Below are positions 3 through 7,807 of a stretch of 18,555 nucleotides of DNA, piece by piece; the first letter of the stretch is position 1, and every line of letters starts with the position of its first letter. The notes beneath the pieces are model-generated. The model saw only the letters and a program-made list of their open reading frames with translations. It was not told the DNA's origin and made no database searches. A program made the position numbers and the translations under genes. The stretch comes from Fusobacteriota bacterium (lineage in GTDB: Bacteria > Fusobacteriota > Fusobacteriia > JAPLKR01), in the NCBI GenBank assembly GCA_026387965.1, contig JAPLKR010000037.1, forward strand, positions 1-18,555, written 5' to 3'.

Positions 3-1148
3 ATTCTCTCACTCATGACAATTTTAGTGGGCGCTTTTTTAGCTATAAATTTTTCTGATATGAAAGCGGTACTTGCTTCATCAAGTGTTGAAAATATGGG
101 GATAATTGTCTTGGCTATGGCGATATATATGCTCGGAACAACTTATCACAATCCGATCATTATGACGCTTAGTTTTATTATTATTCTTTTTCACTGTGTG
201 AGCCACGGTATCTTAAAGCTTTCACTCTTTTCAACACTCGGATATATTGCACAAAAATACCATTCGCACTCAATGGAAGCTTTAGGAGGGGTAAACAAGT
301 CACTAAGATCCTCTTCACTACTCTTTTTAATTTCACTGATCTCGATGTGTGCGATGCCAATACTAAATCTTTTTATCAGTGAATTTCTACTCTTTATTCT
401 CTGTACTCTACTTCTTTTAAGTGGTCAATTAGGCTCGACTATACTCGCAGTATTTTTAATGGTTTTTTTAGCTTTTAATGGCACCATTATTCTTACAGCT
501 ATGGTAAAACTCTACGCCATTGTATTTTTAGGGGAAAATCGTACACAAAAAAGAGAACCAATGAAAAATTCTATGTTGACGCTTTTTTTAACTATACTGG
601 TTACCGCACAACTCTATTTGACACTTTTCTCTCTCAATTTTATTTCCATTTTGCTAAAGCTCTTTCACGTCTATCCATGGATAGGGAGCTCTAATATTTT
701 AAAAATACTGCAAGAACCACTGAAAATGCTCTCACGGCTCTCACTTATTTTTATTATTTTCCTTCTTATATATATGCTATTCGCTCATCTTAAGAGGGCT
801 CGAAAAGTAGAAACATGGGGGTGTGGATCTGAAAATCTTACTCTTAAGCAGCAGTATACTGGGGAATCATTCACCATAGCCATTACCAATTTAATTAAAC
901 TTGGTACAAAAAATAAAGTAAAAACCAATATTACACGCCAACTTTTTCCAAAAGAGCACTATTTAAGAGTTGAAAAAACTGACCAATTTTATGGAATATA
1001 CCAACGCATCTACCGTTTTATTTCAAAAATTTCATATTTTGTATTGTGGATGGAAAGTAAAAACTCTCAGCAAAATATTCTCTATCTCTTAATTATCGTT
1101 ATAATTTTAACCGTTTGGATTTTTGGAGGTGGAACACTATGGAAATAA
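3..1148 (+). CDS. hyfB: HyfB-like membrane subunit (proton-translocating antiporter family), 5' partial
   Basis: This is the C-terminal part of a large antiporter-like membrane subunit of the hydrogenase-4/Ehr complexes, homologous to NuoL/MrpA-type subunits and expected to move ions across the membrane. The reading frame stays open to the left edge (Ile-Leu-Ser-Leu before the first ATG at 15), so the gene starts outside the window. E. coli HyfB has about 670 residues, so roughly 290 are missing. Seen here: the conserved SDMKAVLASSSVENMG segment with the functional lysine (about residues 15-30 from that ATG), HGILKLSLF with the His/Lys pair (about 64-72), and the WGCG...QYTGESF signature (about 267-285) between hydrophobic helices, followed by a final membrane segment. 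It overlaps hyfC by 10 bases. The subunit identification is firm. The ion moved (proton or sodium) cannot be told from sequence. Confidence 0.9.
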   Translation: MLSLMTILVGAFLAINFSDMKAVLASSSVENMGIIVLAMAIYMLGTTYHNPIIMTLSFIIILFHCVSHGILKLSLFSTLGYIAQKYHSHSMEALGGVNKSLRSSSLLFLISLISMCAMPILNLFISEFLLFILCTLLLLSGQLGSTILAVFLMVFLAFNGTIILTAMVKLYAIVFLGENRTQKREPMKNSMLTLFLTILVTAQLYLTLFSLNFISILLKLFHVYPWIGSSNILKILQEPLKMLSRLSLIFIIFLLIYMLFAHLKRARKVETWGCGSENLTLKQQYTGESFTIAITNLIKLGTKNKVKTNITRQLFPKEHYLRVEKTDQFYGIYQRIYRFISKISYFVLWMESKNSQQNILYLLIIVIILTVWIFGGGTLWK

Positions 1149-2056
1149 TATTCAATATTCTCTCCATTATTTTTATTCCCCTCATTATCATAGGTGTCAT
1201 TGAGAAAATCAAATCACTCTTATGCGGGCGTATAGGAAATCCCTGGTATCAATTTTTACTTGAATTCATTAAGTTAATGAGAAAAGAACTCATAGTCAGT
1301 AAACGTAGTAGTTTTATTACAAAGATAGCACCATTCTCACTATTCTTAAGTGTTATCATTGCTACTCTCTTTGTTCCTTTGATAAATGGGCATCCACTTA
1401 TGAGCTTCTCTTATGATTTTGTCGTTTTTGCTTACTTTTTAGGTTTTTCAAAGCTCTTAACCCTACTTTTAGCTATGGATAGTGGGAGCAGTTTTGAAGG
1501 AATGGGGGCAAGCCGAGAGGTGAAGTTCTCTCTTTTGATGGAAGCCTCACTATTTTTACTCTTCGCTTCGCTTATATTAGTAAGTGGTCAAACAAAACTT
1601 AATTTAATGGTTCAACTCTACCTCATCAAAAGCCCACAAACGATTGTTTTTGCGCTACTTCTTATCATCATATTTTTTATATTTATGCTCCTAGAGAGTT
1701 CAAGAATGCCTATTGATGACCCCAATACACACTTAGAACTTACAATGATTCATGAAGTAATGGTACTTGATTTATCTTGCACTCATTTAGCGATGATGAG
1801 TTATGCCAACAGTTTAAAACTCTATATTTTCATGAGTTTAATTATTAATACTATCATTCCTGTAAGTCACTCACTTTTTCTAGCATTACTTTTAAATCTC
1901 GTAGCGCTTGGAGTGCTTTGCTGTATTATAGCTGTTATTGAGACACTCTATGCAAGGATACGGTTTACACGACTATCGGAAATTATGTTACTAACCCTCA
2001 TTGGCGCTTTTATACTGCTTACTTTAATTTTATATATGAATGGAGTCCACCCCTAA
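1139..2056 (+). CDS. hyfC: HyfC/HycD/NuoH-like membrane anchor subunit
   Basis: This is a 305-residue polytopic membrane protein that connects the soluble redox arm to the membrane antiporter subunits (NuoH/complex I subunit 1 family). A longer reading begins at 1115, but the ATG at 1139 has a GGAGGTGG ribosome binding site at the right distance and gives the usual family N terminus, so 1139 is chosen. Conserved features include MDSGSSFEGMGASRE (about 113-127), the loop ESSRMP followed by DDPNTHLEL (about 186-201) and the HE pair (about 205-206). These carry the acidic and arginine residues of the quinone/hydrogenase-facing cavity in the family. The start overlaps hyfB and the stop shares one base with the hyfE start, so translation is coupled. 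Unlike the soluble subunits HyfG and HyfI, nothing here looks degenerate. Confidence 0.92.
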   Translation: MEIIFNILSIIFIPLIIIGVIEKIKSLLCGRIGNPWYQFLLEFIKLMRKELIVSKRSSFITKIAPFSLFLSVIIATLFVPLINGHPLMSFSYDFVVFAYFLGFSKLLTLLLAMDSGSSFEGMGASREVKFSLLMEASLFLLFASLILVSGQTKLNLMVQLYLIKSPQTIVFALLLIIIFFIFMLLESSRMPIDDPNTHLELTMIHEVMVLDLSCTHLAMMSYANSLKLYIFMSLIINTIIPVSHSLFLALLLNLVALGVLCCIIAVIETLYARIRFTRLSEIMLLTLIGAFILLTLILYMNGVHP

Positions 2057-2673
2057 TGGAAAATATGTTAATTTTACTATTTTGTCTTGTAACCCTCATT
2101 GGAGAGGTGAAAAGCCGAGTTTCAAGTCATATTAAGGTTATCGTATGGCAGGGAGTTCTTCTCTTTTTGATATTCATTTTTGATTCAAGTAGTGCACCGC
2201 TTGTTTCAATAGTTTTTATTGCTATTGAAGTGCTCCTGATTCGGGCTATTATCATCCCCATTATTTTGAAGCGAATTTTAGGCAGTACCGATTCACATTT
2301 TGAATCCGAGCATAGAATTTCAAGTTTTTACTCACTACTCATAATGGCGTTACTGTTTATCTCGGGATTTTTCTTTGCCTATATTGCAAATAAAACCTTT
2401 TCGGGGATATCTCCCCTTCAACTGGGAATGTCCATTTCAACCATTTTGATGGGGCTTTACCTAATTTTAATCAGAAAGAAGATGATTAGCCATATTATGG
2501 GGTATGTCATCATGGAAAATGGGATTTTACTCCTCTCATTTTCGCTACTTGGTGATATGCCACTACTTATTTCTGTGGGCGTTTTGATAGACTTTTTTAT
2601 CGGTATACTGTTATTTAGGTATTATACGCTTAAAATATTTCAAAATGGCTATGATAAGCGAGGTCGGATATGA
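2056..2673 (+). CDS. hyfE: HyfE-like membrane subunit
   Basis: This is a 205-residue, very hydrophobic protein matching HyfE (about 216 residues in E. coli), whose C-terminal half is related to NuoK/MnhC. Six or more membrane segments can be drawn. The helix with a buried glutamate (AIEVLLIRAIIIPIILK, about residues 55-72) and the late segment GYVIMENGILLLSF (about 148-161), also with a glutamate, are typical of the NuoK-like ion path. The ATG shares its A with the hyfC stop codon (TAATG), and the stop overlaps the hyfF start as ATGA, so it lies inside a translationally coupled string. It is identified by position and hydrophobic pattern as much as by motif. Confidence 0.85.
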   Translation: MENMLILLFCLVTLIGEVKSRVSSHIKVIVWQGVLLFLIFIFDSSSAPLVSIVFIAIEVLLIRAIIIPIILKRILGSTDSHFESEHRISSFYSLLIMALLFISGFFFAYIANKTFSGISPLQLGMSISTILMGLYLILIRKKMISHIMGYVIMENGILLLSFSLLGDMPLLISVGVLIDFFIGILLFRYYTLKIFQNGYDKRGRI

Positions 2674-4079
2674 TTATAGTACTTCTGTTACCTCTCATAT
2701 TTTCACTCTTAATGGTTATTTTTAAAAATATAAAACTATCAAAGCTGTTGACCCTTATTTTTGCACTCTACTTTTTTATTTTTGCACTCTATTCACTTTT
2801 TAACACAGGTCAGCAGTTTACACCATATTTTGAAATGAATGCACTAAGTTGTTATTTCTTACTCATTGAAGCTATATTAGTTCTGTGTGTTACGGTATAT
2901 CAAATAGGGTATTTTAATGACAGCTCAAAAATGAGTATCCGCTTTAACCGATATTTGATTTTCTACCTGCTTTTCATATTTTCTATGGCGGGATTTATTC
3001 TGACAACAAATTTTGGATTAATGTGGATTTTCTTAGAAGCTTCAACGTTAAGTTCAACTTTTTTAGTAGATTTTCGCTCTACAAAGGGATCTACCATTGC
3101 TGCGTGGCGCTATGTTTTTATCTGTACGATAGGAGTTGCGTTCGCCTTTATTGGAATTATAATGCTTTCAAAGGGTAGTGCTCCATTTGGTGGAACACTT
3201 TTTGTATCAGATTTAATCGCTCATGCAAAACTTATAAATCCTCTCTATTTAAAACTTGCCTTTGCCTTCATCATACTTGGAATGGGGACCAAAATGGGGC
3301 TTGCACCTATGCATGCGTGGCTTCCAAGCGCACACTCTGAAGGGCCGTCACCTGTATCAGCACTTCTTTCAGGAACGCTTCTTAATGTGGCACTACTGGG
3401 TATCATTCAAGTGTATAGAATCCTTGAGAGTGCCAATCTCATTATATTTTGCCAAGAAATTTTCTTAATATTTGGAATGCTTTCTCTGCTTTTTAGCGCA
3501 AGTTATATGCTAAGTTGTACCAATTATAAGAAGATGCTTGCCTACTCCTCGATAGAAAATATGGGCATTATAGCCATTGGTTTATCGCTTGGACCACTGG
3601 GATATCTCGCTATTATCATCCATATTGTGGGACACTCATGTTCAAAAGGGGCGCTCTTTCTAACTTCTGGTGTGATAGAAAAGATGTATCATACTAAAAG
3701 GATTGAGGGTGTCAAGGGACTCGTTGCCCATTCACCCATCGTTGGGATTGTCTGGCTTCTCTCGTTTTTAAGCTTAATTGGGCTTCCGCCATTTCCAATA
3801 TTTTTCAGCGAACTGCTCTTGGTTATTGCTATGATACAAACAGGGCATTTCATTGTGCTAGGGATATTTTTGATACTAATAACACTTATCATATATGGAA
3901 TGGGCAAATCCGTATTCTCCATGAGTTTTGGTAAGTCAACACACTCCATTACGGTAGTAAAAAATTTAAGACTACTTATGTATGGACAAATTGTTCTTCT
4001 TATTTTGATGGCGTCACTCGCCTTTTATCTACCAGAGCCCATACATCAGCTTATGTCAAACGCAGTATCCATTCTATAG
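2670..4079 (+). CDS. hyfF: HyfF-like membrane subunit (NuoN/L antiporter family)
   Basis: This is a 469-residue second antiporter-like subunit (proton_antipo_M family; E. coli HyfF is somewhat longer at about 526). Ion-path residues are present: glutamate E123 in WIFLEASTL, lysine K208 in GMGTKMGLAPMHAWLPSAH with the following His/Glu cluster (H215, H222, E224), KKMLAYSSIENMG (about 287-299), and HIVGHSCSKGALF with H318, H322 and K326. The family's typical MHAWLP..H.EGPSPVSALLSG motif is complete. The start overlaps hyfE by four bases, and 10 bases separate its stop from hyfG. The shorter length compared with E. coli is at the C terminus, and the ORF shows no sign of damage. Confidence 0.92.
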   Translation: MIIVLLLPLIFSLLMVIFKNIKLSKLLTLIFALYFFIFALYSLFNTGQQFTPYFEMNALSCYFLLIEAILVLCVTVYQIGYFNDSSKMSIRFNRYLIFYLLFIFSMAGFILTTNFGLMWIFLEASTLSSTFLVDFRSTKGSTIAAWRYVFICTIGVAFAFIGIIMLSKGSAPFGGTLFVSDLIAHAKLINPLYLKLAFAFIILGMGTKMGLAPMHAWLPSAHSEGPSPVSALLSGTLLNVALLGIIQVYRILESANLIIFCQEIFLIFGMLSLLFSASYMLSCTNYKKMLAYSSIENMGIIAIGLSLGPLGYLAIIIHIVGHSCSKGALFLTSGVIEKMYHTKRIEGVKGLVAHSPIVGIVWLLSFLSLIGLPPFPIFFSELLLVIAMIQTGHFIVLGIFLILITLIIYGMGKSVFSMSFGKSTHSITVVKNLRLLMYGQIVLLILMASLAFYLPEPIHQLMSNAVSIL

Positions 4080-4089
4080 GAGGTCTTTC

Positions 4090-5574
4090 ATGTGGAAGAG
4101 CATTAAAAATTGTGAACTTGTTAATCTTAAAGAGCTAGAACCACTACTTATCACACAGTTAAGAGAGGAAATTCTCGATAAACTACACAGTGGAGGACGA
4201 CTTCTTGCACTGTTTTGCGATAGGAATATCCATTTTATCTACTGCATTATTGCATTGGATAAACACTCTCAGCTGATGATGGGATGTGCATTTATCCATG
4301 GGGCAGCAGAGTATGAGAGTTTAACTCAACACTTTCCTGCGTGTGAAATGTTTGAGAGAGAACTCTTTGAAACAACACACATCAGACCTTTGAACCACCC
4401 AAATCTCAAACCACTTCGTAACCATTCCAACCCTTTTTTATTTCACCAAGTACACTCAAAGGAGGTGCATGAAGTGGGAGTAGGACCTGTTCATGCGGGG
4501 ATAATTGAGCCAGGGTATTTTAGATTTAATGCTCTTGGTGAAAAGATACTGCATCTTGAGATACAACTAGGATATCAACATAAAGGAATTGAAAAACTTT
4601 TTGAAGATTTTAGTAAACAGGGTAGGGGACTACACCTTGAGCCACTTGCAGAGGCAATTGTTGGCGATAGTGCCATTGCGCACACACTCGCCTACGTACA
4701 CGCTATCGAATCTCTGTGCAAACTAAAAGTTCCAAAGAGAGCACAACATATCCGCACACTCGCACTTGAGCTAGAACGTATTGGAAATCACTTAGGAAAC
4801 ATTGGAGATATTCTTGGAGATATTGGCTACTACCTAGGTAAAGATGCATTTATTGCGTTAAAAACAGAGGTTATCAACGCTATGCTAAAGATATGTGGCA
4901 GTCGATTTGGTATCTCGCTCATCAGCGTAGGAGGGGTAAATTATTCCTTAGCCGACGACTTTGTGCAAGAATTAGCAGAGCTTCTAACACGAGTTAAGCA
5001 TAACGCCAAAGTGTATTTTAAAATTCATGTTACCGAAAATTCGAGCGTTCTTTCACGACTAGAAGGAACAGGAATCGTTACCCTTCAAGATGCCATGAAT
5101 CATGGATTTGTTGGACTTACTGCACGTTCATGTGGTATGGATTTAGATGTAAGAAGTGATTATCCGTGTGGCGTATTTCAAGAATATCCTATAAAAAATA
5201 CACTATTTGAAAATGGGGATGTATTTGATAGAACCGTGATACGTTTTGTGGAAATTTTACATTCTATTGAGTGGATAATACAGGACCTTGAACGGTATAC
5301 AACTTCAGAAAGTAGAGAAATCTTCCTACACAACTCTAGCTCAACTCACTATTTAGCAAACCACTGCGTTGTAAGTTTGGTTGAGGGGTGGCGTGGGGAG
5401 ATAATGCACTGTGTTTTAACCGATGACAATGGTCATTTTGAGCGGTATAAGATAAAAGATGCTTCATTTAACAATTGGAATGCACTTCCGTTAGCCGTGT
5501 ATGGGGAGGGAATTTCTGATTTCCCACTTTGTAATAAGAGTTTTAACTTGTCTTATTCAGGGCATGATTTATAG
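4090..5574 (+). CDS. hyfG: HyfG/HycE-like large subunit (NuoC-NuoD fusion) lacking NiFe ligands; Ehr-type
   Basis: This is a 494-residue soluble subunit with an N-terminal NuoC-like part (about 1-115) and a NuoD/NiFe-large-subunit part (about 130-494). Strong family motifs remain: GPVHAGIIEPGYFRF (132-146), LEIQLGYQHKGIEKL (156-170), and DASF.NW plus SDFPLCNKS near the end. In NiFe hydrogenases the metal is held by two CxxC pairs. Here the first site reads V191-G-D-S194 and the second S488-Y-S-G491, so all four cysteines are gone and no NiFe centre can form. It stops at GHDL without a cleavable maturation tail. Loss of these cysteines is the known hallmark of energy-converting-hydrogenase-related (Ehr) complexes. 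The start has AGGAGGT eight bases upstream. It is surrounded by intact operon partners, and its true electron acceptor or substrate is unknown. Confidence 0.9.
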   Translation: MWKSIKNCELVNLKELEPLLITQLREEILDKLHSGGRLLALFCDRNIHFIYCIIALDKHSQLMMGCAFIHGAAEYESLTQHFPACEMFERELFETTHIRPLNHPNLKPLRNHSNPFLFHQVHSKEVHEVGVGPVHAGIIEPGYFRFNALGEKILHLEIQLGYQHKGIEKLFEDFSKQGRGLHLEPLAEAIVGDSAIAHTLAYVHAIESLCKLKVPKRAQHIRTLALELERIGNHLGNIGDILGDIGYYLGKDAFIALKTEVINAMLKICGSRFGISLISVGGVNYSLADDFVQELAELLTRVKHNAKVYFKIHVTENSSVLSRLEGTGIVTLQDAMNHGFVGLTARSCGMDLDVRSDYPCGVFQEYPIKNTLFENGDVFDRTVIRFVEILHSIEWIIQDLERYTTSESREIFLHNSSSTHYLANHCVVSLVEGWRGEIMHCVLTDDNGHFERYKIKDASFNNWNALPLAVYGEGISDFPLCNKSFNLSYSGHDL

Positions 5575-5583
5575 GAGGAATAT

Positions 5584-6336
5584 GTGAAAAATCTACTTAT
5601 TAACACAGTCGTTCACCGAAAGCAAGCGATTAAAGATAATTCGAAAGCCGTTTTACATTCAAAGTTTATCGGGCTACCTATGATTTTGAAAAATAGAGAC
5701 CCTCAAGATGAGCTGTGTTGCGAAAAGCTTTGTTTAAATGGGGCAATTTTACTATCCCCTTTTAGAATTGATTTGGGAAAATGTAGTTTTTGTAAACGTT
5801 GCAGTATTGCATTTCCGAAGCTTATTTGCTTTACTTCTCATCATAAACTCAGTGCAACAAGCCGTGAAATGCTTATCATTGATGATACGTGTGATAATGA
5901 GAGCTATGAAAAAAGAGCTATATTACCTTTGAAGAGCAAGATTTTCAAGCGTTCACTCTCCCTTAGAAGCGTGTGTGCGGGAGGTAATGGAGCGTGTGAA
6001 GCGGAGCTTAATGCGTGTTTCAATGTCAACTTTGATGCGGGGCGCTATGGAATAAAAATGGTGGCGTCACCTCGTCATGCAGATGGAATTATCATTTCGG
6101 GCCCTATCACCGGAAATATGGCCGTGGCACTAGAAAAAGCCTTTGAAGCCACTCCAAATCCTAAACTCATTATTCTACTTGGATGCGATGCAATTAGTGG
6201 GGGCGTATTTGCAAATTCTAAAAATTTGAATAGAAGCTTCCTTGATAGAAATATTCCAACGCTCTATATTCCTGGGGCTCCACCACACCCTCAAACCATC
6301 ATTCATGGTATTATGAAGATGCTTGACAGAGTGTAA
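5584..6336 (+). CDS. hyfI: HyfI-like small subunit with N-terminal ferredoxin remnant (NuoB family), altered cluster ligands
   Basis: This is a 250-residue electron-transfer subunit starting at GTG, with a GGAGG site overlapping the hyfG stop; the ATG two bases earlier is followed at once by a stop. The N-terminal part is ferredoxin-like: C50 in CLNGAI plus C67xxC70xxC73, enough for one 4Fe-4S cluster, while the ligands of the second are missing (F77 replaces the CP cysteine). The C-terminal part (about 123-250) is clearly NuoB/HycG-like (ASPRHADGIIISGPIT, YEATP-type FEATPNPKL, AISGGVF, YIPGxPPHP). Of the four canonical proximal-cluster cysteines only C138 is in place; the others read N135, D202 and A232, while C131 and C201 are new. 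The reading frame is intact, so this looks like remodelling, though early loss of function is possible. Confidence 0.85.
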   Translation: MKNLLINTVVHRKQAIKDNSKAVLHSKFIGLPMILKNRDPQDELCCEKLCLNGAILLSPFRIDLGKCSFCKRCSIAFPKLICFTSHHKLSATSREMLIIDDTCDNESYEKRAILPLKSKIFKRSLSLRSVCAGGNGACEAELNACFNVNFDAGRYGIKMVASPRHADGIIISGPITGNMAVALEKAFEATPNPKLIILLGCDAISGGVFANSKNLNRSFLDRNIPTLYIPGAPPHPQTIIHGIMKMLDRV

Positions 6337-7117: not shown

Positions 7118-7807
7118 ATGCATAAAATGGGATGCGCATTATGTGGATCAGAAATCATTTATCTTGAAAAAGAACAACTTTTGGAGTGCGTGGTATGTAA
7201 AAAAACTGTTTTAGCCAATGCGAAATGTGAGAATAATCATTTTGTGTGTGATTCGTGCCATGAAATGGATGCTGTGGAATATATAGAACACACATGTCTA
7301 AACACGCAGGCAAAAACACTGGTTGAGTTGACAGTAGAATTAATGAGAAACCCAAAGGTGCTTATGCATGGCCCTGAACATCATTTTTTAGTTCCAGCGG
7401 TACTTTATACCCTCTATGCAAATACATACGAGAAAAAAAGTGAATTAGCTGAAAAGTTAGAAATTATTAAAGAGCGTGCAAAAATGGTGCCCGGAGGTTT
7501 TTGTGGGCAGTTTGGGTGTTGCGGCGCAGGTGTTGGAACAGGTATATTCATGAGTGTCCTTCTTAGTACATCACCACTTTCTGAAAACAGTTGGGGTGAC
7601 GCACAGTTAATGACTGCAAGAACACTAGAAGCACTTGGAAAGCTTGGAGGACCGCGTTGCTGTAAACGTTCAACATTTCAAGCCTTGGTAAGTGCGAATG
7701 AATTCTTAAAAGAAAAGTTTAATATTGTGCTCGAGTGTGGAGATATGAAATGTGAGTTTAGTGAGCTTAATTCAACATGTTCTAGTACACGATGTCCATT
7801 TATATAG
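7118..7807 (+). CDS. DUF5714 domain protein, cysteine-rich
   Basis: This encodes a 229-residue soluble protein. The N-terminal third resembles a treble-clef or zinc-ribbon region with paired cysteines C6xxC9, C24xxC27, C37, C44xxC47, and HxC-type residues, and would bind zinc or iron. The second part has the family signature HGPEHHFLVPAVLYT (about 84-98), GGFCGQFGCCGAGVG (about 126-140), and a late GGPRCCKRSTFQAL, ending in a CxxxxC...RCPF tail. I recognise this as the DUF5714 family of anaerobes, often found next to or fused with methyltransferases and radical SAM proteins. The biochemical activity is not known to me. It starts 6 bases after AGGGAG, and its stop lies within the ribosome binding site of the next gene, now a pseudogene, so the two were co-translated. 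Confidence 0.75.
   Translation: MHKMGCALCGSEIIYLEKEQLLECVVCKKTVLANAKCENNHFVCDSCHEMDAVEYIEHTCLNTQAKTLVELTVELMRNPKVLMHGPEHHFLVPAVLYTLYANTYEKKSELAEKLEIIKERAKMVPGGFCGQFGCCGAGVGTGIFMSVLLSTSPLSENSWGDAQLMTARTLEALGKLGGPRCCKRSTFQALVSANEFLKEKFNIVLECGDMKCEFSELNSTCSSTRCPFI

Follow-up and report, generated by a model that had tools for sequence, protein, structure and literature searches.

Here, we analysed a stretch of 18,555 nucleotides (the window), which represents an entire contig of a draft genome (141 contigs; 1.79 Mb; 95.5% complete; 1.15% contaminated). It carries the genes hyfB, hyfC, hyfE, hyfF, hyfG and hyfI in head-to-tail order. In agreement with the first-pass annotation, the reading frames of the operon turned out to be intact, with hyfB truncated only by the contig start. 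The hyfI frame (5584-6336) runs uninterrupted from its GTG start to the stop codon; the GTG starts five bases after a ribosome-binding site (AGGAGG, 5573-5578), and the gene is followed by a hairpin of 20 pairs with a short T-run.

15..1148, + strand: hyfB, C-terminal part; gene cut by the contig end
1115..2056, + strand: hyfC (NuoH-like); 24/24 conserved charged columns kept
2056..2673, + strand: hyfE
2670..4079, + strand: hyfF, antiporter-like subunit; 9/13 conserved charged columns kept
4090..5574, + strand: hyfG, large subunit, a NuoC/NuoD-like fusion; alignment shows that the four NiFe cysteines are missing
5584..6336, + strand: hyfI, fused ferredoxin-like (HyfH) and NuoB/HycG-like small subunit, 250 aa
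6338..6381, + strand: intrinsic-terminator-like hairpin at the operon end (-30.2 kcal/mol, z -9.5)

HyfI, the sole NuoB-family protein found in the genome, matches MbhJ (E 2.4e-26) and HycG of FHL (E 1.4e-20). The alignment of HyfG shows no CxxC at either NiFe motif. Since both cysteine pairs are missing, the complex is of the Ehr type and not a hydrogenase; all four NiFe cysteines of the group 4 [NiFe] hydrogenases are absent from its large subunit. It does not match complex I either: the N2 ligand set of NuoB (tandem Cys, Cys, Cys) is not there, and NuoB-family models, like the NuoB and NuoD models used for this comparison, score under their cut-offs. The alignment of HyfG with Nqo4 is ambiguous around the quinone-site residues.

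The positions of the proximal-cluster ligands in HyfI (C-x2-C, G-x-C and PGC) were determined by alignment with the structures of MbhJ, HycG and NuoB, with the class relative L003 and with the closest relatives L125-L131. They read N135, C138, D202 and A232 in the window, i.e. three cysteines are replaced and only C138 remains. The alignments with structures and relatives thereby confirm the initial claim that three of the four proximal ligands are lost or moved, and the claim that C131 is new was borne out as well.

5974..5976, + strand: C131, new Cys, four residues ahead of the position where the first cysteine of CxxC is lost; absent in close relatives
5986..5988, + strand: N135 (AAT), first proximal ligand lost; Cys in 14/14 canonical relatives
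5995..5997, + strand: C138 (TGT), only proximal ligand kept in register
6184..6189, + strand: C201-D202 (TGC GAT), third proximal ligand changed to Asp or shifted by one
6277..6279, + strand: A232 (GCT), fourth proximal ligand lost

Judged from these positions, the canonical proximal cluster is very probably absent from the protein. The annotation had read the region without gaps, which gives the register N/C/D/A, but a one-codon deletion plus an insertion fits the CxxC loop and the GCDA loop equally well. 'Moved' and 'lost' are thus indistinguishable in these two loops, and C138 or C201 could be shifted originals. An AlphaFold2 model of HyfI made without an alignment reached a pLDDT of 33. 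That the replacements stem from an error in sequencing, assembly or binning is extremely improbable, even though the genome is a draft in 141 contigs. Each of the codons AAT, GAT and GCT lies at least two substitutions away from TGT/TGC, which makes the base-call error considered in the annotation implausible: at least six base differences are found in three codons and the frame stays open. Besides, the gene is the only one of the NuoB family in a genome of high completeness and low contamination, and equivalent losses occur in other lineages.

In the ferredoxin half of HyfI, one of two clusters is lost and the other is kept (C50, C67, C70 and C73), two points which the annotation had omitted.

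5731..5733, + strand: C50, fourth Cys of ferredoxin motif I (N6b-type set); retained in the window, as in all 14 canonical relatives
5782..5802, + strand: C67-x2-C70-x2-C73, ferredoxin motif II; completes the N6b-type 4Fe-4S ligand set with C50

In Thermus Nqo9, motif I contributes its fourth Cys and motif II its first three to the N6b cluster, which lies nearest to the proximal site. The ferredoxin half of L125-L129 resembles that of the window, with the N6a-type set already gone and the N6b-type set kept.

In a search for close relatives, the nearest genomes shared only the class with the window, and HyfI identity to operon relatives did not exceed 50%. Across 98 genomes of the window's own class, a single further HyfI turned up, and the best HyfI relatives, with 45-50% identity, belong to another class. 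All four proximal cysteines are present in L125-L129, L131 and L016. As the nearest relatives keep all four ligands, the loss arose on the window's own lineage. In a tree that excludes hyfI and is built from the other five genes (hyfB, C, E, F and G), the window clusters with three canonical operons (SH-aLRT 99), and within the starred clade the ligands are lost only in the window. Its terminal branch measures 1.32 compared to 0.43-0.54 in its sisters and is thus about 2.5 times longer. Invariant residues were defined over 14 canonical relatives. In the NuoB half, the window deviates at six of the 40, three of them being ligands (hypergeometric P 0.008) and the others F155Y, Y187F and D226T. 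The window keeps 38/39 invariants in HyfC, 80/89 in HyfG, 31/36 in HyfF and 28/40 in the visible part of HyfB; conserved charged columns are kept completely in HyfC (24/24) and HyfB (10/10) and in part in HyfF (9/13). At the level of sequence, the lesion is aimed at the site where electrons end, and overall change is somewhat accelerated as well.

But, could the complex simply be losing its function after transfer or genome reduction, with ligand loss as an early sign? The annotation had named canonical relatives together with a decaying copy as grounds for refutation, and the first part of this was found: the nearest relatives are canonical. The long operon branch and the 28 of 40 invariants in hyfB leave room for relaxed constraint on the window copy. 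The second part fits less well, as the changes are concentrated at the ligands, the six frames are intact apart from the cut in hyfB at the contig end, a ribosome-binding site and a terminator are in place, and hyfC retains every conserved charged residue. The same ligand set was also lost convergently in lineages under selection. We thus regard decay as unlikely.

These lineages were found in a survey that combined an alignment of related small subunits with searches around its unusual members. Of the same ligands, three or four are gone from 21 sequences of a Thermaceae type, a label that rests on a 66% match to its named member, the Allomeiothermus silvanus plasmid pMESIL01. Loss of three or four ligands was also found in 13 sequences from the class of G223, and further losses in five sequences from the class of G117 (D or T/C/D/D), in two from the genus of G112 (deleted/A/G/D), in G153 (A/S/E/H), in G295 (D/E/D/S) and on the Mycobacterium branderi plasmid pJCM12687 (NGSDEWE, GTDAISGG, PGAPASP). 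All these operons contain the hyfBCEFGI set, which is also seen in the M. branderi record. On the hyfB/C/E/F/G tree, at least four changes between the kept and the lost state are required (starred branches), six by parsimony; we infer that these are losses rather than regains. The canonical relatives used here are in line with the annotation's assumption that most Ehr complexes keep the cluster, but there are several exceptions, and they are widely distributed. In 20 of the 21 Thermaceae-type sequences as well as in G153 and G295, the NuoB half contains no Cys at all, and hence a Cys-ligated cluster is impossible within that half.

The ferredoxin half shows a different pattern. The window, the Thermaceae type, the class of G223 and G295 have lost the N6a set, which G153 and the genus of G112 still possess. 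All 39 clusterless members with a fused HyfI retain every ligand of the N6b-type set. If redox function had simply been lost, the N6b-type cluster should have disappeared too; its retention suggests that electrons still matter.

The ligand loss in the class of G117 is conserved across five genomes. In this class, an Ehr-type operon with the order hyfI-B-C-E-F-G was observed (L132:1257-8456), in which HyfI is unfused and NiFe ligands are missing. The annotated order of rv0082-rv0087 in M. tuberculosis (PMC6901956) is the same, a comparison by gene order alone. No ferredoxin gene was found in the operon read (L132), and a partner may be encoded elsewhere. In the complex of this class, the NuoB half of which has one Cys, we recognised no full ligand set for a redox cofactor. 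The small subunit on the M. branderi plasmid is annotated as 'ferredoxin' (L153:7848-8642); its proximal ligands are gone and the N6b-type set is kept.

Selection was assessed by dN/dS (Nei-Gojobori) in four of the clusterless clades. For the NuoB half, we obtained 0.14 in the Thermaceae type, 0.20 in the class of G223, 0.07 in the class of G117 and 0.04 in the genus of G112 (one pair), a range of 0.037-0.196 for the lost clades. Median values for six genes in six Thermus-like operons were 0.07-0.20, with hyfI (0.16) being no more relaxed than the membrane genes. The low dN/dS indicates that the clusterless complexes of the measured clades are maintained by purifying selection.

The annotation had weighed two alternatives, namely re-ligation of the cluster and a complex that has ceased to deliver electrons to the HyfG interface. 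Re-ligation would involve C131, C138 and C201 together with a fourth residue (D202, C144 or a HyfG residue), resulting in a shifted cluster or one with three Cys as in MBS. The Cys left in the NuoB-like half are 131, 138, 144 and 201. Two of five new Cys lie at most four residues from ligand positions (P about 0.04, the counts having been selected post hoc), there is an excess of new Cys (P 0.007-0.07, varying with the background used), and one-codon indels could bring C138 and C201 near the old positions. This clustering near the ligand loops is suggestive but weak. When close homologues were checked as the annotation had proposed, C131 and C201 turned out to be unique to the window, and the position of A232 is a Cys in the canonical relatives. 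C144 is common to most of the close relatives; as the canonical sisters have it too, it was rejected as a new ligand. Furthermore, an extra Cys beside position 131 also occurs in four-ligand proteins (L112-L114), replacement Cys are missing in the other clusterless lineages, and the PGC ligand is lost outright. A working precedent does exist in MBS, the membrane-bound sulfane reductase of Pyrococcus, in which three Cys bind a catalytic proximal cluster and the loop is three residues shorter than in MBH (PMC7684303). In the window, one ligand is in register and the loop is as long as in the canonical relatives. We therefore judge re-ligation to be rather unlikely for the window, although slightly less so than decay, and the relatives do not require it. 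The second alternative, in which no electrons reach the HyfG interface, is supported by the Cys-less lineages under purifying selection, and some clusterless complexes probably function with no electron transfer to the usual end point.

Based on the ligand loss, electrons could not end in a HyfG/HyfI chamber without NiFe and cluster in any known way. The electron path would stop before this chamber, the largely intact membrane arm would move ions without redox drive, and the remaining cluster of the ferredoxin half would act as a redox gate or a structural clip. Taken as a whole, we consider it reasonably probable that the window encodes an Ehr-type complex without the canonical proximal [4Fe-4S] cluster, in which ions are moved either with no redox drive or with a role for the remaining cluster as gate or clip. 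The narrower proposal, namely ion translocation by a membrane arm like that of Mrp or complex I, without redox drive and gated or stabilised by the remaining cluster, is put forward tentatively. It is likewise conceivable, if somewhat speculative, that such complexes form a recurrent class within the complex I superfamily, which dropped the terminal redox centres while peripheral and ion-translocating arms were kept under selection, ions moving without redox drive and the retained ferredoxin-type cluster serving as a redox gate; the window would then be one independent origin.

Among known systems, Ehr (Hyf-like) complexes are the closest, sharing the hyfB-C-E-F-G-I set, the NiFe-less large subunit, the NuoB/HycG-like small subunit and the antiporter-like subunits. 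They have been described as lacking NiFe ligands and being of unknown function (PMC6349859, PMC6728331, PMC10432482), and the common assumption is that they couple redox chemistry to the transport of ions (PMC6349859, PMC6728331). The window and several lineages differ in that the proximal ligands are missing as well, which the canonical reference relatives keep. MBS is also a NiFe-less group 4 relative with an altered proximal ligand set (PMC7684303), but its cluster is kept and constitutes the active site, whereas the window has one of four Cys and Thermaceae-type members have none. FHL/hydrogenase 4 (HycG/HyfI) and MBH (MbhJ) are homologous in HyfI, HyfG and operon, but carry NiFe and the full set of proximal ligands. 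The complex has in common with Mrp Na+/H+ antiporters homologous antiporter-like subunits and a possible redox-free ion exchange, but the latter have no NuoB/NuoD-like peripheral arm, which is kept here under selection (in the relatives). We found no description of recurrent proximal-cluster loss in the open literature searched, the scope of which did not include the main Ehr survey, and we do not claim priority.

As clusterless members under selection occur in cultivable Thermaceae (Allomeiothermus silvanus), and a clusterless member also in Mycobacterium branderi, the assumption of redox coupling is directly testable. If these members translocate ions, the peripheral arm of this superfamily can do something besides delivering electrons to a terminal site. 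With respect to the coupling problem of complex I, clusterless complexes are also separation-of-function variants provided by nature.

Canonical and clusterless small subunits (L096 and L117, L099 and L115, L102 and L118) occur together in several genomes of one family (G419, G434, G471), which suggests divergence after duplication or transfer. In G536, two complete hyf operons stand in tandem (L150:3242-19426) and fall into two subclades of the window's clade. The hyfB gene of the Thermus-like G357 is apparently split into two adjacent frames (L135:2262-3929), possibly by a strain frameshift. DUF190 genes lie beside Ehr operons on a Mycobacterium plasmid (L153:12060-13139) and a Burkholderia plasmid (L156:2502-2870), a possible regulatory link. 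Just downstream of the hyf operon, the window encodes a Cys-rich protein (7118-7807; 7.4% Cys), which matches part of the double selenoprotein model MbdU with 121.8 bits (cut-off 600).
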